This document shows positions 15,722 through 26,141 of a stretch of DNA of 34,312 nucleotides, one piece after another (the first letter of the stretch is position 1; each line of letters begins with the position of its first letter). Both the position numbers and the translations under genes were made by a program. This DNA comes from Planctomycetaceae bacterium. GTDB taxonomy: Bacteria > Planctomycetota > Planctomycetia > Planctomycetales > Planctomycetaceae. Location: contig JAKFWA010000033.1 in the NCBI GenBank assembly GCA_021732995.1, positions 1-34,312 of the forward strand, written 5' to 3'. The notes under the pieces are model-generated. The model did no database searches and was not told where the DNA came from. It saw nothing but the letters and a program-made list of their open reading frames with translations.

Positions 15722-16516
15722 ATGAGTCTTCGAGCATTGCATTCGGCAGCGACGGGCATGGAATCGCACCAGTTCGCTCTCGATACCATTGCCAACAACC
15801 TGGCCAATGCCAGCACCACCGCCTTCAAGCGGTCTCGCGCCAACTTCGAGGACTTGTACTACGAGCACCCGAAGTTGCCGGGTACTCAAGCGACGGCGGG
15901 GCAGACCGGTATTGGAACGGCGGTTGGTCTGGGAACTCGTATTTCCAGCACGTCGGTCGACTATCGCACTGGTTCGGCGTTGCAGACGGAATCACCGCTG
16001 GACCTGATGGTGGTCGGCGAAGGCTTCTTTGAAGTCGATGACGGTGGGCGTCCGGCCTACACACGCATGGGCAATTTCACCAAGAACGCGGACGGGAATC
16101 TGGTGTTGGCATCTGCGGATTCCGGTCGAGTCCTGCAGCCGCCGATTCAGCTTCCCGCCAACGCGATGAATATCACGATCTCAGGTGACGGCCAGGTCGT
16201 CTACGACGACGGACAGGGCAACTACCAGCAAGCGGGACAACTGAAGCTGGTGCGGTTTATCAACAACCAGGGTCTGATGCAGAAGGGTGAGTCGCTCTAT
16301 GTCCCCACTCTGGCATCGGGGCAGCCGGTTGAAGGTCAACCGGGTTTGGATGGCTTTGGCCAGATCCGGCAGGGTTATTTGGAAGCGTCCAACGTCGAAC
16401 CGGTGCGCGAGCTGGTTGATCTCATCAAGACGCAGCGCAACTTTGAATTGAACAGCCAGATCATTCAGGCGGCGGATCAGATGCTGCAGCTCGTTTCGAA
16501 TCTCCGACGGTTCTAG
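15722..16516 (+). CDS. flgG: Flagellar distal rod protein FlgG
   Basis: FlgG builds the distal rod that passes through the P and L rings. The 264-residue length is normal. The N-terminal region MSLRALHSAATGMESHQF and the following IANNLANASTTAFKRSRANFEDLYYE are classic FlgG. The insert GTAVGLGTRISSTSVDYRTGSALQTESPLDLMVVGEGFFEV matches the FlgG-specific middle part, which tells it from FlgF. The C-terminus ends VRELVDLIKTQRNFELNSQIIQAADQMLQLVSNLRRF. AAGGAG stands eight bases ahead of the ATG at 15722, a strong ribosome binding site that fixes the start. It lies between flgF and flgA on the same strand. Confidence 0.96.
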   Translation: MSLRALHSAATGMESHQFALDTIANNLANASTTAFKRSRANFEDLYYEHPKLPGTQATAGQTGIGTAVGLGTRISSTSVDYRTGSALQTESPLDLMVVGEGFFEVDDGGRPAYTRMGNFTKNADGNLVLASADSGRVLQPPIQLPANAMNITISGDGQVVYDDGQGNYQQAGQLKLVRFINNQGLMQKGESLYVPTLASGQPVEGQPGLDGFGQIRQGYLEASNVEPVRELVDLIKTQRNFELNSQIIQAADQMLQLVSNLRRF

Positions 16517-16564
16517 TTCGCGAGTTCTGCGGCGGTTCGTTTGCTCTCACACTAGTTCTCGAAG

Positions 16565-17893
16565 ATGCGTTTCATGGTCAGTCTCATTCCTCACAATTCG
16601 TTGCGCCTGCTGTGCGGGTTACTGGCCTGGCTGCTGGTCTGGACCGGTGGTAGCTCGTTCTGCACTGCAGCAACCGTGCGGCTGCGCAGCAGCGTTGTTG
16701 CTGAAAGCTCCATCCTCAAACTGGGCGACGTGGCCGACGTCTTTGATGACGATGCGGACTTCGTGGAGTCATTGAATGCGATCACACTGCAACCTGCTCC
16801 AGCACCGGGCCAGCAGTTGCGACTGAATCTGGACATCATTCGCGACCGCATGCGTGCGCACCGCATTGATCCTTCGCAGATCGATTTCAATGGCAGCATC
16901 AATGTGGTGGTAACTCGCAAGCACGACCCCGCTGAACCGGCGCGGCACGTCCCACTGGCTACGATGCCTCATCGACCAGTGGCCAGCGTTCCTCAGAACA
17001 GCCTGAGCCTGACATCTGCTGGTTCCAAGCCCATTGGGTCTCATCCCGAGTTGACCGTCACCACGAAACAGCAGAACGCGGCTCGCCAGATGGTGATGCA
17101 TGCGATCGAGGACGAACTGGCCCGCAGCGGTCAGGACTGGGGCAAGCCGAATATCTTCATCCGTCTGACGCCAACGCAGGTACTGGAAGTGTTGAGTGCG
17201 GTTGACGGCCTGCGCGTCGCCGAGGGCCGCACCCTTCGGGATGATCGATTTGAGCTGGTGCTGGCGTTTCATACCGCGGACGGCACATCGGACTCGATCA
17301 GTATTGTGGCTGATGTCAAGCAGCGTCCGCGCGTGGTGGCGGCGCGATACAACATTCCGCGCGGTTCGGTCATCACCGCGAGCGATGTCGAGTTCCTGGA
17401 AGTTGACGACGTGCGGAACGGTGTCACCAATCCGGAGATCGTCCTTGGAAAAGAAGCACGCAGCGATATACGCGCGGGTTCGTCCATCAAGGCCGACGCT
17501 GTGGTGGAGCCGTTGATGATTCGCAAAGGCGACTTGTGCAACGTGGTCACACGCGTTGGTGGCACTCAGGTGTCTGTGCAGTGTCGGTCCCTGAAGGACG
17601 GGCGGCTCGGTGACAACATCACTTTTGAAAGCAGTGATCGTCGCGATCCGCTGTATGCCCGAGTGGTGGGCGTGAAGCAGGCGGAAACCGGCATCAACAC
17701 GCGACGTCCGCCGCAGAGAATTCCGGACGCAGCTCCGAGCGAATCGGATGATGCCGAGTTCGACATGGTCTCGAAGCCCGCGTCGACCTTTCCGGAGATT
17801 CCGTCGCCAGCGAAGGGCTTTGCGGTCGCGGATCAGAAGCCTTCGGCGTTGCAGCGGAATACCCCCGGCAGGGCGTCTTTGAAAGCCAGATAG
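16565..17893 (+). CDS. flgA: Flagellar P-ring assembly chaperone FlgA, long form
   Basis: FlgA is a periplasmic chaperone for assembly of the FlgI P-ring. The product is 442 residues, about twice the enterobacterial length. A signal peptide spans about 1-35 (ending FCTA). The N-terminal FlgA region (36-118) has ILKLGDVADVF and ITLQPAPAPGQQL. A linker rich in Pro and Ser covers about 120-165. A SAF/ChapFlgA region at about 253-372 contains RYNIPRGSVITASDVEF and KGDLCNVVTRVGGTQVSVQC. The last 70 residues look disordered and have no FlgA match. Long FlgA proteins with this N-terminal region are known in other bacteria. The start at 16565 is uncertain; 16574 (MVSLIP) would also work. The gene fits the order flgG-flgA-flgH. 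Confidence 0.88.
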   Translation: MRFMVSLIPHNSLRLLCGLLAWLLVWTGGSSFCTAATVRLRSSVVAESSILKLGDVADVFDDDADFVESLNAITLQPAPAPGQQLRLNLDIIRDRMRAHRIDPSQIDFNGSINVVVTRKHDPAEPARHVPLATMPHRPVASVPQNSLSLTSAGSKPIGSHPELTVTTKQQNAARQMVMHAIEDELARSGQDWGKPNIFIRLTPTQVLEVLSAVDGLRVAEGRTLRDDRFELVLAFHTADGTSDSISIVADVKQRPRVVAARYNIPRGSVITASDVEFLEVDDVRNGVTNPEIVLGKEARSDIRAGSSIKADAVVEPLMIRKGDLCNVVTRVGGTQVSVQCRSLKDGRLGDNITFESSDRRDPLYARVVGVKQAETGINTRRPPQRIPDAAPSESDDAEFDMVSKPASTFPEIPSPAKGFAVADQKPSALQRNTPGRASLKAR

Positions 17894-17929
17894 TTCACGA
17901 AGTCAGGCGAATGGCCTGAGGAATACGCT

Positions 17930-18772
17930 ATGTCCCGGATCACAATCATGACTGCCTGTGTCGTCGCGGCGACGGCTGCGAGCGCGCACGCTCAAAGCCG
18001 AGTATCGACGACTGCGCAGCGTCCGAGCGCTGCGGCTCTCGAAGCCTGGCCCGGAAAGGCGAAGGCGACGACTGCCACCAGAAACGTGCTGCCGGTGGCG
18101 AATCTGAAGTCTCGCCAACTGACTGACGATCCCGGTTTTGTACCGGAGCCGCCGCAACCGATGCCGCCTCTACCACCTCAGGGCGCGCCGCTGGGACCTT
18201 TCATCGACGACCGGGGACCGCCGATTCGCGTGCGGGACTGCTCACGCATCTACATTGAGGCTATTCCACCTGCCGAGATCAAGGTGCACGACATCGTGTC
18301 GATCGTCGTCGACGAGAAGTCCGAAGTGATCATGAACCAGCGGTTCAATCGCCAGAAGAACATGAAGCTGAAAGCGGAACTGAAGGACTTTATTCGACTC
18401 AACAATGGCAAACTGGATAACGCGGCGGGCAATTCCCCGACGATCGATAGCCAGTTGCAGGCGGCGATGTTGGCCTCAGGTACGTTGACTGATCAAGAAG
18501 GCATCAAGTACCGGATTGCGGCGACCGTGAAAGACGTCAAACCAAACGGCACGATCACGCTCGAGGCCAGAAAGGTCATTCGAAACGAAGACGATGCGTC
18601 CGAGTATCTGCTGACCGGAGAAATTCGCGCTCAGGACATCAAGCCGGACAACACTGCCAGCAGCGAAGATATTGCCAATCTTTCAATCACCAAGCACGCC
18701 AAGGGCCGCGTTTACGACAGCACCAAGCGCGGCTGGGGCGTGCGGTTGCTGGACCTCCTGTCGCCGTTCTGA
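17930..18772 (+). CDS. flgH: Flagellar L-ring protein FlgH
   Basis: FlgH forms the L-ring in the outer membrane. The 280-residue product has an N-terminal signal peptide ending near AHAQS, then a Pro-rich stretch (QPMPPLPPQ, about residues 77-85). The conserved FlgH core is at about 120-280: PAEIKVHDIVSIVVDEKSEV, then IRAQDIKPDNTASSEDIANLSI and the end GRVYDSTKRGWGVRLLDLLSPF. GAGGAA upstream supports the ATG at 17930. Most FlgH proteins are lipoproteins; here the only early Cys, C10 in MTAC, is too close to the N-terminus for a convincing lipobox. The stop is almost joined to the next start (ATG at 18775), so translation of flgI may be coupled. Confidence 0.9.
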   Translation: MSRITIMTACVVAATAASAHAQSRVSTTAQRPSAAALEAWPGKAKATTATRNVLPVANLKSRQLTDDPGFVPEPPQPMPPLPPQGAPLGPFIDDRGPPIRVRDCSRIYIEAIPPAEIKVHDIVSIVVDEKSEVIMNQRFNRQKNMKLKAELKDFIRLNNGKLDNAAGNSPTIDSQLQAAMLASGTLTDQEGIKYRIAATVKDVKPNGTITLEARKVIRNEDDASEYLLTGEIRAQDIKPDNTASSEDIANLSITKHAKGRVYDSTKRGWGVRLLDLLSPF

Positions 18773-18825
18773 TCATGACTCATGAGTTCAATCGCCGTTC
18801 TGATTTCTCTGGAAGCGTGACGATC

Positions 18826-19878
18826 ATGTGCATTCCTCGCCGATTCTGGTTCACCGTTGTCATGGCTGCGGTTGCGGTGCTGGCCTCGTCCGCAGACGCC
18901 GTTGCGATGCTGCGCGTCGGGCAGATCTCGACGATCGAAGGTGAAACGCGCGTGCGACTGGAAGGCACCGGGCTAGTGGTTGGTCTCAAGGCGACCGGTG
19001 ATGGTCCGAATCCCGTCACGTTGCGCGCGTTCCGCAAGTACTTGGAGAACAACGGTCTGCCGATCGATAAGCCCGACGAGCTCATCAAGCACAGCACGAG
19101 TGTCGCTCTGGTCTCGGTCAGTGCCGAAGTCCCGATTACAGGTATTCGCGCCGGACAGATGATCGATTGCCAGGTGAGCGTCTTGTTCAACTGCAAGAGC
19201 CTCGCGAATGGCGAACTCATTCAAACGCCGCTAACCGGCGAGCTTACTGCGGATGATGGCGTGATTGCGTTTGCTTCTGGTCGCCGGATTCTGGTGGAAG
19301 ATCAACTGCATCCGACGGTGGGCATTGTTCGCCAGGGGGCACAGATCAAACGCGATATCAAGATCAATCGCACACGCAAGAATCAATTGCGGCTGCTGAT
19401 CAATCCCGAACGGGCATCGTCGGAAATGGCTCAGGAAATGGTGCGGGCGATTAACGAAAAGTTCTCGGTGGACGCGGGCGGCGTCGATATCGCGTCGGCG
19501 GTGTCGGACACCGAGATCTCGGTGAATATTCCGAAGCAGTACGACAATTCGACGCAGTTCATCAGCCTGCTGAAACAGGTGTCGCTGAAGGACCCCTCGC
19601 GGCCGACCGTGACAGTTAACGAGAAGTCCGGCACGATTGTGATTACGGATGATGTGGAACTGCGGCCGACGGTCTTCAGTCATAAGAACCTGGCTGTGAA
19701 CGTGGGCGGCGAGCCGTTCGTGTCGCTGCCTGAGCCCGGCAAGGGTGGATCGCCGCAACGGCTCGCGGACCTGCTGGAAGCCCTGAATAACCTCAAGGTG
19801 CCGCCGCAGGACAAGATTGCGGTGCTGAGGGCTCTGCATCAGAACGGCAGCCTGCAGGCTGAGTTCATCGAAAAATAG
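18826..19878 (+). CDS. flgI: Flagellar P-ring protein FlgI
   Basis: FlgI polymerises into the periplasmic P-ring around the rod. The chosen ATG at 18826 gives 350 residues and a clear signal peptide, MCIPRRFW followed by a hydrophobic core and SSADAVA. An alternative ATG at 18775, two bases after the flgH stop, would add 17 residues and lengthen the N-terminus. Conserved family blocks follow the cleavage site: EGETRVRLEGTGLVVGLKATGDG, then NNGLPIDKPDELIKHSTSVALVSVSAEVP and GQMIDCQVSVLFNCKSLANGELIQTPL. It ends LADLLEALNNLKVPPQDKIAVLRALHQNGSLQAEFIEK, typical of full-length FlgI. It closes the visible flagellar set; flgJ and hook genes are absent from the window. Confidence 0.93.
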   Translation: MCIPRRFWFTVVMAAVAVLASSADAVAMLRVGQISTIEGETRVRLEGTGLVVGLKATGDGPNPVTLRAFRKYLENNGLPIDKPDELIKHSTSVALVSVSAEVPITGIRAGQMIDCQVSVLFNCKSLANGELIQTPLTGELTADDGVIAFASGRRILVEDQLHPTVGIVRQGAQIKRDIKINRTRKNQLRLLINPERASSEMAQEMVRAINEKFSVDAGGVDIASAVSDTEISVNIPKQYDNSTQFISLLKQVSLKDPSRPTVTVNEKSGTIVITDDVELRPTVFSHKNLAVNVGGEPFVSLPEPGKGGSPQRLADLLEALNNLKVPPQDKIAVLRALHQNGSLQAEFIEK

Positions 19879-20152: not shown

Positions 20153-22795
20153 ATGCACGATCTCCCGCTGATCACGACCATCGCTGTTGCATTCACTTCT
20201 GCCTGGCTGTTGGGCTTGTTGACGCAGAAGTTGGGGCTGTCGCCGATCGTGGGGTATCTGGTTGCAGGCGTGCTGATCGGACCGCACACGCCGGGCTTTG
20301 TGGGCGATGTGCATATCGCCCAGCAGTTGGCCGAAGTCGGCATCATCCTGCTGATGTTCGGTGTCGGCCTGCACTTTCATGTGAAGGATCTGGTGGCCGT
20401 GAAGTCGGTCGCCATTCCGGGGGCGCTGGGGCAAAGTCTGGTTGCGACCGCGATGGGCGCAGTTGTCTTTACCGCGTTCGGATTACCGTTGCCGGCGGCG
20501 ACAGTGGTCGGCATCTCGATGGCTGTGGCCAGCACCGTGGTCCTGATGCGTGTGCTGTTGGATGATGACGCGCTCAACACTCCGCAAGGTCATGCGGCCG
20601 TCGGCTGGCTCCTGGTCGAAGATATTTTCACCGTCGTCGTACTGGTGCTGATCCCTGTTCTGGGTGGGGATGCGGCTAAAGCCGAATCTCCGCTGGGAAC
20701 TGGCCTCTGGGCAGCACTGGGGTGGGCGTTGTTGAAGCTGGCCGTGCTGGTGGTGGTCGTGGTGCTGGCCGGCGCTCGCCTGATTCCGTGGGTTCTGGTG
20801 CAAGTAGCTCGGCTGCGGTCGCGCGAGTTGTTTACGCTGACCGTGCTGGTCTTCTCGATTGCCGTCGCGGCTGGAGCATTCGCGATCTTCGGAGCCTCAA
20901 TGGCTCTGGGAGCGTTCCTGGCCGGGATGATGGTCGCTCAGTCTCCCGTGAGTCATCAGGCCGCTGCGGACGCCTTACCGATGCGCGACGCCTTCGCGGT
21001 GCTGTTCTTTGTATCGGTCGGAATGCTCTTTGATCCGGCATTCCTGCTGCGCGAACCGCTGATGATCGCGGCGGCTCTCGGCATCATCCTGATCATCAAG
21101 CCGCTGACGGCGCTGGTGATTGTGGCGGTCTTGGGGCATTCGGCGCGCACGGCTCTGACCGTAGCGTTGGGGCTGGCACAGATCGGCGAGTTCTCGTTCA
21201 TTCTCTCCGAGCTGGCTCGCAAGCATGATTTGATGCCGGATGCGGGACATCATGTTCTGGTCGCGGCGGCGATTATCTCGATCACCCTCAACCCGATTTT
21301 GTTCCGCTCGTTGCGACCGATTGAGAACTGGCTGAAAGCTCGTCCTCAACTGTGGCGACTGATCAATGGCCGCGCGGAAAGCCGCGCCCGCAGTCTCAAT
21401 CTGGCCACTGAAGGGGCCGTTGCTCAGACGCTCGACAAGACGGATCGTCTGGCGATCGTGGTGGGGTTTGGTCCAGTCGGACGCTCGGTGCATGACCTGC
21501 TGCGCGACGCGGGTATCGCAACCGTAGTGATCGACATGAACATGGACACGGTGTCTGAACTGACTTCGCAGGGGCAACATGCGGTCTTCGGCGACGCCTC
21601 GCAGGACTCCATCTTGGAACAGGCGGGCATGAAGCGAGCTTCACATCTCGTGCTGACTTTACCCGACACCGCGGCGCGGTTGTCAGTTGTGGCAGCAGCG
21701 AGGAATCTCAACCCAGCGGCTCGCATCTTGGTGCGGGCTCACTATCTGCGAGAGAGAAAAGCATTGGAGGAAGCCGGTGCAACGGGAGCCGTTTTTGAGG
21801 AAGGCGAAGCCGCCATCGCGCTGACCCGACTGGTCTTGGCTGACACCGGCGCGGCTCGGGAAGTGGTTGAGCGGAAGGTGCGTGATCTGCGGATGCAGTT
21901 GTTCTTGGAGAACATGTCCAACATCCGCTCACAGCGCGTGCGCAGCATCATGGTGCCGTGGACTCGCGTGCGGAGGTTGTCCAGTTCCGCGACGCGGCAG
22001 GAAGTGTTCCAGCAGGTTGCCGAGCAGCGTTTCTCACGTTGGCCGGTAGTTGAGTCCGGTACGGGTAACGTCATGGGGTACCTGCTGACGAAGGACTTGA
22101 TTGCCAGGAATTCAGCCGATGCGGCTTGGATCCACTTGGTGCGTCCGTTGCGAGTGGTCAGTTCGGACGATGATCTGGAATCGACTCTGATGGAGATTCA
22201 GAGCGAAGGCGCGACAGTCTGTCTCGTCGTTGATGCGGGTGTGCCCGTTGGGCTGATCACGCTGGAAGACATTCTGGAGCAGGTCGTCGGGCGAATCGAA
22301 GACGAATACCCCCACGAGCCCACGTTGTCTTTGCGAGACGCGTTGTCGGCTGGTGGCGTGATTCTCGAATTGAGCGGCCGCACGTCGGAGCAGGTCATTG
22401 CCGAACTGGCAGCGGCAATACCCGAGGGCAAGCTGCCGACAGGGGCACAGGTTTCGCAACTGGCGTTGGCGCGGGAAGCCGAGGTCTCAACGGACCTCGG
22501 CGTCGGCGTGGCTATTCCGCACGCGCGCTGCCCAAATCTGACATCGGCGCTCGTTGTTTTCGGCCGAGCTTCCGAAGGTATTCTGTTCTCGCCGCAGTCA
22601 CCCGAGTTGGTACGTCTCGTGTTCTTGCTGGTGACTCCGGCTGAACAGCCTGACTTGCAACTTCTGCTGCTGGCGCGGCTCGCTCGAGTGGCCGGCGATC
22701 ACTCTTTGAGAGACCGTCTTTTGAACGCGACCTCGGACGCGGAAGTCATCGATTTGATCTCCAGAACGGCGTCTGACCTTGAAGGTCTGAATTGA
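20153..22795 (+). CDS. RosB/YbaL-like CPA2 antiporter fused to TrkA-N, CBS pair and PTS EIIA-like domain
   Basis: This 880-residue inner-membrane protein should exchange K+ or Na+ for H+. Residues 1-390 are a CPA2 Na_H_Exchanger domain with LLMFGVGLHFHVKDLVAVKSVAIPG and the acidic pair E156-D157 in GWLLVEDI, closest in style to YbaL/RosB. A TrkA-N nucleotide-binding domain (433-550) has GFGPVGRS at 438-445. A CBS pair of CorC/HlyC style lies at about 595-717, ending LEDILEQVVGRIEDEY. A PTS EIIA type-2 domain fills 720-880, with the phospho-His candidate H790 in VAIPHA. GAGG upstream supports the ATG at 20153. YbaL-like proteins usually stop after TrkA-N. The extra domains suggest control by adenine nucleotides and by a phosphorylation relay. 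A second antiporter follows 191 bp downstream. Confidence 0.9.
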   Translation: MHDLPLITTIAVAFTSAWLLGLLTQKLGLSPIVGYLVAGVLIGPHTPGFVGDVHIAQQLAEVGIILLMFGVGLHFHVKDLVAVKSVAIPGALGQSLVATAMGAVVFTAFGLPLPAATVVGISMAVASTVVLMRVLLDDDALNTPQGHAAVGWLLVEDIFTVVVLVLIPVLGGDAAKAESPLGTGLWAALGWALLKLAVLVVVVVLAGARLIPWVLVQVARLRSRELFTLTVLVFSIAVAAGAFAIFGASMALGAFLAGMMVAQSPVSHQAAADALPMRDAFAVLFFVSVGMLFDPAFLLREPLMIAAALGIILIIKPLTALVIVAVLGHSARTALTVALGLAQIGEFSFILSELARKHDLMPDAGHHVLVAAAIISITLNPILFRSLRPIENWLKARPQLWRLINGRAESRARSLNLATEGAVAQTLDKTDRLAIVVGFGPVGRSVHDLLRDAGIATVVIDMNMDTVSELTSQGQHAVFGDASQDSILEQAGMKRASHLVLTLPDTAARLSVVAAARNLNPAARILVRAHYLRERKALEEAGATGAVFEEGEAAIALTRLVLADTGAAREVVERKVRDLRMQLFLENMSNIRSQRVRSIMVPWTRVRRLSSSATRQEVFQQVAEQRFSRWPVVESGTGNVMGYLLTKDLIARNSADAAWIHLVRPLRVVSSDDDLESTLMEIQSEGATVCLVVDAGVPVGLITLEDILEQVVGRIEDEYPHEPTLSLRDALSAGGVILELSGRTSEQVIAELAAAIPEGKLPTGAQVSQLALAREAEVSTDLGVGVAIPHARCPNLTSALVVFGRASEGILFSPQSPELVRLVFLLVTPAEQPDLQLLLLARLARVAGDHSLRDRLLNATSDAEVIDLISRTASDLEGLN

Positions 22796-22986: not shown

Positions 22987-24660
22987 ATGGATTCCTGGAG
23001 ACTCTTGCTAGAGATCGTGTTGCTGCTGGGGGCGTGCGTTACGTTCGGAGCGATTTGCTCGTGGCTGAAACAAAGCCCATTGGTCGGTTATCTGGCGGCC
23101 GGAATGCTGCTGGGTGGACCGGGTAGTCTCGGCCTGATTCGCGCCGAGCATGAAATTGAATCGGTGGCCGAACTTGGCGTCGCGCTTTTCCTTTTCAGCC
23201 TCGGGCTGGAGTTCTCTTGGAAGCGGCTGATGGGACTCGGCGGGAAGATTCTGGCGAGCGGCGCCATTCAGGTTGCGCTGACGCTGATCGCTGCTGCGGC
23301 GGTGTCCATGCTGTTCGGCATCGGCGCCAAAGAGGCGGTCGTCATCGGTGCGATGCTGAGCCTTAGCAGCACGGCAGCCGTGTTGCGCGTGTTCATGGAG
23401 CGCGGCGACATCGACAGCCTCTATGCCCGGAATTCGGTTGCGATTCTGTTAATTCAAGACATGGCCGTCGTTCCGCTGGCTGTGCTGATGACGCTGGTTT
23501 CGGAGGGTGGTACGCCGGTTGAGATCGCAACGTCGCTGGTCAAGATTACCGGCATGGCATTGGGCCTGGTTGCCGTGCTGCACGTGTTGCTCAACAAGAT
23601 CGCGGTGCGTGTTTTGAATGCGCTCACGGCCGAGCAGAACCGTGAGCTGACTGTGGTGCTGGCGATTGTGGCTGGTTTGGGAGCCGCCTGGGCCGCTCAT
23701 GCTGTGAATCTGTCACCCGCGCTAGGAGCTTTCATTGCTGGAATGTTCCTGGGCAGCTCGCCCTTTGCGGTGCAGTTGCGATCGGACATTGCTTCCTTGC
23801 GAACCATCCTGCTGACACTGTTCTTCGGCACGGTCGGCATGGTTGCCAATCCGATCTGGATCGCCGAGCACCTGCCGTTCGTTTTGGGCGTCGCCAGCCT
23901 GATCATCGTGCTGAAGGCGGCGATCACCTGCGGCATCCTCAGAGCGTTCGGGCAATTGCCGTCGGTGGCAGTGGCGACGGGCCTGTGTATCTCGCAGGTG
24001 GGCGAGTTCGCCTTTGTGCTGGGCAGTACCGGGCGTGAAAAGGGCGTCGTCTCCGAGCAGATCTACATGGTCATTGTGTCGTCGACGATCGCCACGTTGT
24101 TCTTGACGCCGTACCTCGTGCGAGTTGCCCCGCTCATGGCCAATTGGCTGGAGCGACGGCGATCTCTGGCAACTGGACCGGTGGAGCATGCGGAATCAGA
24201 CGAACCTCATCCCGAAGTGATTCTGGTCGGCTTCGGCCCCGCTGGTCAGGCGGTAGGGCGGGCATTGGCTGACAAAGGTCGAAACGTCTTGGTTATCGAC
24301 GTGAATCCTCAGGCGAAGCTGCTGGCGGAATCACTGGGCTTGCACGGTCAGATTGGTGACGGCACGCAGATTGACGTACTGGAACACGCTCACATTCATA
24401 CGGCGAAAATGATTGTGGTCACGCTTCCCGCGAGGGAACCCGCGATGATGGTGCTGCATCATGTGAAGCGGCTGGCTCCGACAGCGCACGTGGTGGTGCG
24501 ATCGCGATATCAGTTGCACCTCAGCGATTTCGAGCAGGCCGGAGCCGACGCCGTCATTGGTGATGAAGAGCAGGTAGGCTACCGCCTTTCCGCGTACGTC
24601 GGCGTGCAACTGACGATGCTTGATGAGGCCGGGCCGCACAGGGACGCTGCGGCGTCGTAG
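22987..24660 (+). CDS. KefB/KefC-like CPA2 cation/proton antiporter with TrkA-N domain
   Basis: This 557-residue membrane protein is a K+- or Na+-coupled antiporter of the CPA2/Kef group. Residues 1-390 form the exchanger domain with PLVGYLAAGMLLGGPG and SLGLEFSWKRLMGLGG. The key pair is Q157-D158 (LLIQDMAVVPL), the form typical of KefC, whereas its upstream neighbour has E-D. The cytoplasmic TrkA-N domain (410-530) begins VILVGFGPAGQAVGRAL and continues VIDVNPQ, a nucleotide-binding motif. There is no CBS or EIIA domain and only a weak C-terminal tail. The ATG at 22987 has a purine-rich AGGAAC about a dozen bases upstream. The 191-bp gap makes a shared transcript with the first antiporter possible but unproven. 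Ion and activation signals are unknown; no KefF/KefG partner is nearby. Confidence 0.9.
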   Translation: MDSWRLLLEIVLLLGACVTFGAICSWLKQSPLVGYLAAGMLLGGPGSLGLIRAEHEIESVAELGVALFLFSLGLEFSWKRLMGLGGKILASGAIQVALTLIAAAAVSMLFGIGAKEAVVIGAMLSLSSTAAVLRVFMERGDIDSLYARNSVAILLIQDMAVVPLAVLMTLVSEGGTPVEIATSLVKITGMALGLVAVLHVLLNKIAVRVLNALTAEQNRELTVVLAIVAGLGAAWAAHAVNLSPALGAFIAGMFLGSSPFAVQLRSDIASLRTILLTLFFGTVGMVANPIWIAEHLPFVLGVASLIIVLKAAITCGILRAFGQLPSVAVATGLCISQVGEFAFVLGSTGREKGVVSEQIYMVIVSSTIATLFLTPYLVRVAPLMANWLERRRSLATGPVEHAESDEPHPEVILVGFGPAGQAVGRALADKGRNVLVIDVNPQAKLLAESLGLHGQIGDGTQIDVLEHAHIHTAKMIVVTLPAREPAMMVLHHVKRLAPTAHVVVRSRYQLHLSDFEQAGADAVIGDEEQVGYRLSAYVGVQLTMLDEAGPHRDAAAS

Positions 24661-24830: not shown

Positions 24831-26141
24831 ATGCGTCGTCATTTTTGCAGCCTGCTGCTGGCTGCCAGCGTCTGCGGCATCAGCAGTCCCCTCGTGGCTC
24901 AAGAGCCCGAGAAGAAAGTCACAGCTCCCGTTGGCAAGTCCGAAGGGACGCTGGTGATGCGGGGCAAGCCGTACAAGCTCGAACACGCCGTTGCGTATGA
25001 ATCGAAGGTGTTCGACGACAATTTGATCTCGGTAACGCTCAGCGAAAAACCTCTGCAGATCGACAAGATCAAGTCGTCGTTGCGCGAGGGCAAGGGCACC
25101 GATGACAAGATCTTCATGTTCCATCCGCACGTGAAAGTCACCTTCGGCAAAGATGGTAAGCCGATGTTTTCGAACTCATACGCCGACAACGGCTCGCTGA
25201 GCGTCAGTGGATCATTGAAGGGCGAGTTGAAGGCCAAGGATGGTCGAGTTATCGGCACCGCTTCGATGAAGACCGGCGACGATGAGAAGGGTGTGTCGAG
25301 CTTTGATATCAAGTTCGATCTGGAACTCATTCCTGCTGTCGTGGTGCCAGCGGATCCCAAACCGGAACCGGGTGACAAGCCGAAGACCAAGTCGACCAGC
25401 AAGTCCAAGGGCAAGGATGATGCTCCCAAGGGCGATGCCAAGTCCGGCGGCGATCGGCCGAACGTGCAGGACCTGCTGCTCAAAGACGCGACGGACGTGC
25501 AACTGAAGAAGCTGGTTGAGCAGCTTAACTTCAAGAGTTCGACAGACGTGAAGGCCACGGCCGAAGCGCTCTCGAAGCATCTCGAAGAGCAGAAGTGGAC
25601 GAAGTCCGGATCGGACCTGATTACTCCGAAGTCGGCGATTCTGAAACGGGACAACGGCGCGGCGTCGCTGACAATCTTCGTGAAGCCCGCCGATACCGGT
25701 AGCACCGTGTCGATGATGACCAAGGGGTTGTCGTGGGAAGAAAAGAAGGCCGCCAAACCCGAGCCCGTCGAAGAGGAAACTGTTTCCGCGAAGGGCGTGT
25801 CAGCCAGCAAGTTCCCCGTTCCGGACAAGGCGACGGAAGTCGAGCGCAATGCTGATATTCAAATGGTCATTTTTCGATCCCAATTGGGAGCGAAGGAACT
25901 CGCGGACTTCTATCGCGCCAAGCTGAAGGCGTTGGGCTGGAAAGAAGACAAAGACGAAACGCTTTTGATTGAGGAAGCCGGAACCGGCGCCTTGGTCTTC
26001 ACGAAGGGCAAGGACGCTCTACGGGTACTCATTCAGCCCGGTAAACCTAAATCCGCCTCCCGAGTCGTGATTCAAGGCGAGGGCAGCGCGTTGACGGCAG
26101 ACGCAGATTCCGAAGACACCAAGCCAGCCAAGAAGGAATAA
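24831..26141 (+). CDS. Secreted Lys-rich two-domain protein of unknown function
   Basis: I do not recognise a named family. The 436-residue product has a signal peptide of about 23 residues (ending LVAQ). The first domain (about 24-170) is beta-rich, with KPYKLEHAVAYESKVFDDN and a run of alternating polar/apolar strands. A flexible linker at about 172-215 is rich in Lys, Pro, Ser and Asp. The C-terminal third has VPDKATEVERNADIQMVIFRS followed by LADFYRAKLKALGWKEDKDE, similar to a small domain seen after PVP-type starts in many planctomycete secreted proteins. It ends in a short charged tail (TKPAKKE). The codon use matches its neighbours. GGAG about 12 bases upstream gives a moderate start at 24831. 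It ends just before a strong terminator. Confidence 0.8.
   Translation: MRRHFCSLLLAASVCGISSPLVAQEPEKKVTAPVGKSEGTLVMRGKPYKLEHAVAYESKVFDDNLISVTLSEKPLQIDKIKSSLREGKGTDDKIFMFHPHVKVTFGKDGKPMFSNSYADNGSLSVSGSLKGELKAKDGRVIGTASMKTGDDEKGVSSFDIKFDLELIPAVVVPADPKPEPGDKPKTKSTSKSKGKDDAPKGDAKSGGDRPNVQDLLLKDATDVQLKKLVEQLNFKSSTDVKATAEALSKHLEEQKWTKSGSDLITPKSAILKRDNGAASLTIFVKPADTGSTVSMMTKGLSWEEKKAAKPEPVEEETVSAKGVSASKFPVPDKATEVERNADIQMVIFRSQLGAKELADFYRAKLKALGWKEDKDETLLIEEAGTGALVFTKGKDALRVLIQPGKPKSASRVVIQGEGSALTADADSEDTKPAKKE

Follow-up and report, generated by a model that had tools for sequence, protein, structure and literature searches.

A single open reading frame in a Planctomycetaceae bacterium encodes, in one 880-residue chain, a CPA2-type exchanger domain, a TrkA-N (RCK) domain, a CBS pair of the CorC/CNNM type and a PTS EIIA type-2 domain. 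The initial annotation had read this combination from motifs, and profile searches of the 880-aa chain confirmed it, with all four Pfam families exceeding their curated cut-offs by whole-protein score. Our favored reading, in which we place slightly more belief than doubt, is that the protein exchanges monovalent cations for H+ as a YbaL-type antiporter and is controlled by its own PTS EIIA domain, with the CBS pair serving as a second input. The gene lies in a window, by which we mean the whole stretch of DNA analyzed, of 34,312 nucleotides, and its parts and its neighbor are as follows.

20153..22795, + strand: fused antiporter gene, 880 aa; open reading frame with ATG start, four Pfam families above cut-off
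20198..21304, + strand: Na_H_Exchanger (CPA2, YbaL-like) transmembrane domain, residues 16-384; PF00999, E 3e-49
21455..21793, + strand: TrkA_N (RCK), residues 435-547; PF02254, E 3.9e-25; match to the YbaL RCK structure in the PDB (3fwz)
21932..22303, + strand: CorC/CNNM-type CBS pair, about residues 594-717; PF00571; CorC-type pairs in the PDB (4hg0, E 7.8e-19)
22352..22762, + strand: PTS_EIIA_2 (PtsN-like), residues 734-870; PF00359, E 3.3e-21; PtsN in the PDB, best E 1.2e-11
22520..22522, + strand: His790 codon, predicted phospho-acceptor, aligned to E. coli PtsN H73
22987-24660, + strand: another CPA2 antiporter, Kef-like, carrying TrkA_N but lacking a C-terminal extension, 191 bases downstream of the fused gene

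Domain architecture and genomic setting

The EIIA assignment was secured by PTS_EIIA_2 at 76.2 bits against a cut-off of 27, and the proposed CorC-type CBS pair held as well. The Pfam CBS signal came from the whole-protein score (E 3.8e-9), with two stretches at E 0.1 and neither below 0.001 by itself, and the pair as a whole was evident from the CorC structures. Solved structures matched by sequence comprised KefC for the exchanger, the RCK domain of YbaL, CorC CBS pairs, and PtsN. Among NCBIfam models, residues 570-729 matched CorC (PRK15094), residues about 727-874 matched the fruA/PtsN EIIA models, and residues 2-559 gave YbaL (PRK10669) as the best match at 498.5 bits, below the cut-off of 700, which leaves the fused antiporter YbaL-like rather than filed as YbaL itself. 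The order of Na_H_Exchanger followed by TrkA_N is that of YbaL/Kef-type CPA2 proteins. A Glu156-Asp157 pair at the transmembrane motif, which we take to be the ion site of the exchanger, was invariant in 19 of the 19 aligned rows, fused and unfused alike, and E. coli YbaL carries the same Glu-Asp. E. coli YbaL consists of Na_H_Exchanger and TrkA_N only and ends there, whereas the fused antiporter extends with the CBS pair and EIIA. The unfused antiporters L015 and L016, 64-65% identical to the window protein, also stop near residue 580, in agreement with the earlier statement that YbaL relatives usually end after TrkA-N. We found no report of an antiporter-TrkA_N-CBS-EIIA fusion in the open-licence PMC literature; annotation databases may list the architecture.

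The neighboring antiporter has Gln-Asp at the transmembrane motif, in contrast to the Glu-Asp of the fused antiporter, and it was not found at the other eight fused loci as far as their flanks reach; the contig of L012 offers nothing downstream of the gene, and that of L007 only about 1.2 kb. A comparison of flanking open reading frames at nine fused loci revealed two weak pairs and no conserved operon partner. In the window, the flagellar genes FlgG, FlgA, FlgH, and FlgI (15722-19878, + strand) lie directly upstream of the fused gene, and a 436-aa open reading frame downstream of both antiporters (24831-26141, + strand) had no Pfam match at E 0.1 and no NCBIfam match at E 0.01. A betaproteobacterial MAG (L020, 5818-9731, + strand) carries a YbaL-like antiporter with a second antiporter directly after it, and the match of that second antiporter to the window protein reaches residue 697, into the CBS region.

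Distribution and selective constraint

The initial annotation proposed a survey of planctomycete genomes; searches of genomes and contigs, in which either the CBS-EIIA part or the complete chain served as query, recovered the fused chain in 17 distinct genomes among the matches listed, duplicates removed, and the fusion is therefore more than a chance event. An assembly or frameshift artefact was ruled out by the presence of the chain in single open frames across these 17 genomes. A scan of GTDB contigs added eight further fused chains (L007-L014) among the best 80 of 507 relatives, originating from Pirellulaceae, Planctomycetaceae, Phycisphaerales, an uncultured bacterium, Gemmataceae, Planctomycetota (two), and Verrucomicrobiales. 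The surveyed genomes were species representatives, several of them MAGs. The fusion was present in 4/59 genomes of relatives (own genome included), in 10/148 genomes of the class (own genome included; one chain ends at a contig end), and in 1/145 genomes of the phylum of L014, the one being that of L014 itself. Duplicates were recognized by matching coordinates, and G411/G433 (L008) and G435 (L011)/G479 were each counted as one. L012, L013, and L187 end at contig ends, and the partial chains L012 and G529 (L187) stay among the 17; in L183, L184, L186, L188, and L189 the chain was covered only from about residue 86-109 on. All four Pfam families were detected in 16 of the 17 fused proteins, the exception being L012, which lacks EIIA only and has lost its end at the contig end.

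Pairwise dN/dS values (NG86, seven pairs) fell between 0.06 and 0.39 in every domain: 0.11-0.29 for the transmembrane part, 0.06-0.21 for RCK, 0.12-0.23 for CBS, and 0.18-0.39 for EIIA, the last being the highest of the four parts in six of the seven pairs. In the four more distant pairs dS exceeded 1 for most values, so that dN/dS is rough there. All four parts thus look constrained at the sequence level, EIIA least in six of the seven pairs.

A CNNM-CBS-EIIA family and the origin of the module

The same genome encodes a CNNM-CBS-EIIA protein (C36; L119, 6685-8244, - strand) that is 49% identical to the CBS-EIIA module of the window protein; neither this paralogue nor the E. coli YcgO/PtsN precedent discussed below is part of the first, sequence-only reading. 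In the phylum sample, where up to six candidates were scored per genome, at least 39 of 392 genomes, own genome included, had a match that extended across CBS to EIIA. Among the matches listed, the antiporter form appeared only in the own genome, and the other 38 genomes had CNNM proteins, 37 identified by Pfam and the last (G130) from its N-terminal sequence. Scanning 40 CNNM-CBS-EIIA proteins, two of them from other surveys, detected CNNM in 40/40, EIIA in 40/40, and CBS in 39/40; the long frame of G211 is a CNNM protein as well. Within the class, the antiporter form outnumbered the CNNM form: 10 genomes carried it, and four (G000, G353, G512, and G520) had a match of CNNM length, that of G520 being interrupted by a stop. 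By Pfam, the window protein has no CNNM (DUF21) membrane domain and the exchanger domain stands there instead. E. coli CorC (YbeX) is laid out in Pfam as CBS-CBS-CorC_HlyC and YcgO as exchanger-TrkA_C-CorC_HlyC. CorC_HlyC (PF03471), present in both, was found at E 0.001 in none of the 17 fused proteins and none of the 40 CNNM-CBS-EIIA proteins; in both groups, EIIA after the CBS pair occupies the place that CorC_HlyC holds in E. coli CorC.

Our trees included 11 of the 17 fused genomes. In the antiporter-core tree (30 rows), the 11 fused rows clustered together (96/95) to the exclusion of unfused antiporters from planctomycetes and others, and the branching around the window protein within this cluster did not resolve. 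In the CBS-EIIA tree (41 rows), the 11 fused rows again formed one group (100/97), which joined C36 and the CNNM-CBS-EIIA protein of G353 (100/99) before the other 28. The set of L007, L011, L012, L013, L121, and L123 recurred in both trees. These topologies speak for a single origin of the fusions sampled, and the simplest history would be a single transfer of CBS-EIIA onto a YbaL-like antiporter followed by joint inheritance of the parts. The donor was probably a CNNM-CBS-EIIA protein, given the CNNM-type CBS pair and the greater frequency of CNNM forms across the phylum sample; we infer this direction, which depends on the tree root. The occurrence of the fusion in several planctomycete groups, and also in a Verrucomicrobiales MAG, suggests that it was later transferred horizontally.

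A predicted phosphotransfer relay without a PTS_EIIC match

The EI and HPr genes on which the proposed phosphorelay depends were both found in the own genome, adjoining ptsN, with the genes for PtsN, HPr, and EI adjacent to one another and a ribosome hibernation factor gene ahead of them, an arrangement resembling the hpf-ptsN order of E. coli. Four EIIA_2 domains are encoded there, in PtsN, an HTH_17-EIIA protein, the CNNM-CBS-EIIA protein, and the window protein. EI exceeded its cut-off in 16 of the 17 fused genomes and HPr was present in 10 of the 11 tested; the small MAG G436, which carries the fusion, had no HPr and EI at sub-cut-off level only. The PTS_EIIC profile matched neither in the own genome nor in any of the 17 fused genomes, and the same search found it in 7 of 14 control genomes. 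A role in a sugar PTS was rejected on the basis of PTS_EIIC in 0/17, with PTS_EIIC as the EIIC class and EIIA_2 as the EIIA class covered. A 2008 study assigned planctomycete EI to a regulatory group R without PTS transporters and described functional information on EI-R as nonexistent at that time (PMC2405797). The own-genome EI without PTS_EIIC agrees with that part of the account, and its membership in group R is putative.

EIIA_2 domains also occur in other settings. The HTH_17-EIIA_2 protein of the own genome (L118, 7336-8049, - strand; 237 aa), with EIIA frames of similar length in several relatives, is possibly a PTS-controlled DNA-binding protein. In two relatives (G216 and G373), EIIA_2 is fused to DAC, the c-di-AMP synthase (L171, 2011-3441, + strand; L173, 1060-2484, - strand), and a DacZ_P match close to its cut-off lies between the two domains. 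Such EIIA-DAC proteins might place c-di-AMP, a K+ signal in other bacteria, under direct PTS control.

Predicted phosphorylation and nucleotide sites

His790, the His of 'VAIPHAR', corresponds in the alignment to H73, the phospho-His of E. coli PtsN, and R774 corresponds to PtsN R57; we take H73 and R57 to be active-site residues of EIIA. Retention of this His in relatives, on which the earlier phosphorelay idea hinged, was observed in 16 of the 17 fused proteins, and the Arg was present in all 17. The single exception, L008 (6001-8673), has Asn at position 790 and a weaker EIIA match (59 bits), and its genome encodes EI, HPr, and four other EIIA matches; L008 is possibly a natural locked form. 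Among CNNM-CBS-EIIA proteins, the equivalent position is His in 29/30 and Arg in one. The position of PtsN H120, presumably the second active-site His, is occupied by Gln836 in the window protein; across the 17 fused proteins it is Gln in 14, His in two, and missing in one; Gln was also found there in 11/30 CNNM-CBS-EIIA proteins and in 2/3 aligned Na_H_Exchanger-EIIA proteins. This substitution may slow phosphotransfer.

For the CBS pair, the Mg-ATP-site residues F233, S234, R235, T313, and D316 and Thr207 of MtCorB (PMC8242095) served as reference. By motif mapping only, F627, S628, R629, T703, and D706 of the window protein were equated with the first five, and each of them is conserved in 10 or all of the 11 fused proteins compared; the Thr207 position, mapped in the same way, is Val in the window protein and Val or Ile across the fused proteins. 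Several CBS positions are lost in L014, which has a long branch in the CBS-EIIA tree. With the EIIA match, the retained His, EI and HPr present, and the CBS positions equated with the ATP site mostly kept, the prerequisites for tying ion flux to both nucleotide level and a phosphorelay, as first proposed, are in place, and the tie itself is putative.

Proposed mechanism and alternatives

In the mechanism that we favor, PEP would charge EI and then HPr, and HPr would phosphorylate His790. Unphosphorylated EIIA, positioned beside RCK and CBS, would hold the exchanger quiet and phosphorylation would free it, an uncertain direction borrowed from YcgO/PtsN. The CNNM-type CBS pair would supply the second input, most likely by binding (Mg-)ATP or AMP. 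Because the module is probably CNNM-derived and the genome has one CNNM-CBS-EIIA protein, the same relay probably reaches a Mg2+ transporter as well as a K+/Na+ antiporter. Phosphotransfer, nucleotide binding, the transported ion (K+/Na+), the antiport activity, and the direction of control are what we infer. Since the exchanger is joined to CBS and EIIA, the phosphate donors are present, and PTS_EIIC has no match, the energy state of the cell may directly switch ion flow.

The EIIA domain could instead be a structural or docking module that stabilizes the dimer or recruits a partner, with no phosphotransfer to His790. The existence of L008 without the His, the prevalent Gln at the PtsN H120 position, and the weaker constraint on EIIA in six of the seven pairs would all fit such a role, but the near-universal retention of H790 and R774, the His shared by 29 of the 30 CNNM-CBS-EIIA proteins, and a donor EI over cut-off in all but one of the fused genomes argue against it, and we regard it as unlikely. 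EIIA might also be phosphorylated and act outward, sensing or draining HPr~P or signaling to other partners while its own exchanger goes ungated. The three other EIIA_2 domains in the genome, which would share the single HPr found, lend themselves to this idea; EIIA_2 nevertheless occurs in this group on ion transporters of three kinds, as would be expected if the carrier were the target, and our credence in outward signaling is accordingly low.

That the CBS pair is the main regulator, with EIIA a passenger of little function inherited from a CNNM-CBS-EIIA protein, appears quite improbable to us. The module did apparently move as one block, and dN/dS of EIIA is above that of CBS in six of the seven pairs, yet even these EIIA values remain those of a constrained domain (0.18-0.39 over the seven pairs), and the active-site His and Arg are conserved.

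Beyond control of the antiporter by its own EIIA domain, we entertain a broader reading, for now with rather more reservation than conviction, in which the PTS of this group has turned into an ion-control system. PEP-derived phosphate would pass to EIIA on the K+/Na+ antiporter, the CNNM Mg2+ transporter, and further exchangers, as well as on a c-di-AMP synthase in relatives, and the glycolytic state would thereby directly set the balance of K+, Mg2+, and H+. We give this reading the weight that we do because EIIA recurs on cation transport and c-di-AMP synthesis in the group. The EIIA domains on ion transporters are likely outputs, visible in the genome, of an EI-R-like relay, group R being a putative assignment here. 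If this is true, a phospho-His switch would be covalently part of cation transporters, and the sugarless EI-R relay would gain a physiological output.

Comparison with known systems

The closest functional parallel is the E. coli pair YcgO/CvrA and PtsN (EIIANtr), a K+/H+ antiporter with an RCK-like part under EIIA control by phosphorylation state. In the published account (PMC11808508), unphosphorylated PtsN binds YcgO and inhibits it, and phosphorylation weakens the binding; YcgO without its CorC domain did not co-purify with PtsN, which made the putative CorC domain the probable binding site, and PtsN binding was proposed to block RCK-driven activation. The RCK and CorC assignments of YcgO are predictions according to its authors (PMC11808508). 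YcgO/CvrA is of the CPA1 type and meets its EIIA in trans on CorC_HlyC, whereas in the fused chain EIIA is covalent and CorC_HlyC has no match. By this analogy the fused chain looks like a covalent, cis version of YcgO/PtsN control, a form that makes the E. coli model testable within one polypeptide.

The CorC/CNNM Mg2+ transporters share a CBS pair of the same type with the fused chain, and the planctomycete CNNM-CBS-EIIA proteins share the whole C-terminal module; in both the membrane domain differs. The Na_H_Exchanger-EIIA proteins of relatives (L170, L172, L174, and L175) combine the exchanger and EIIA_2 but have no TrkA_N or CBS match. LacS offers a precedent from sugar transport, being a secondary transporter regulated through HPr phosphorylation of its own EIIA-like domain (PMC10710835). 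It is a sugar carrier with a domain of the EIIA-Glc class, whereas the fused chain is of the cation antiporter type and carries EIIA_2. To our knowledge, LacS has neither an RCK nor a CBS domain. The fused antiporter and its CNNM cousin could be further cases of the kind that LacS represents, with cations in place of sugars.
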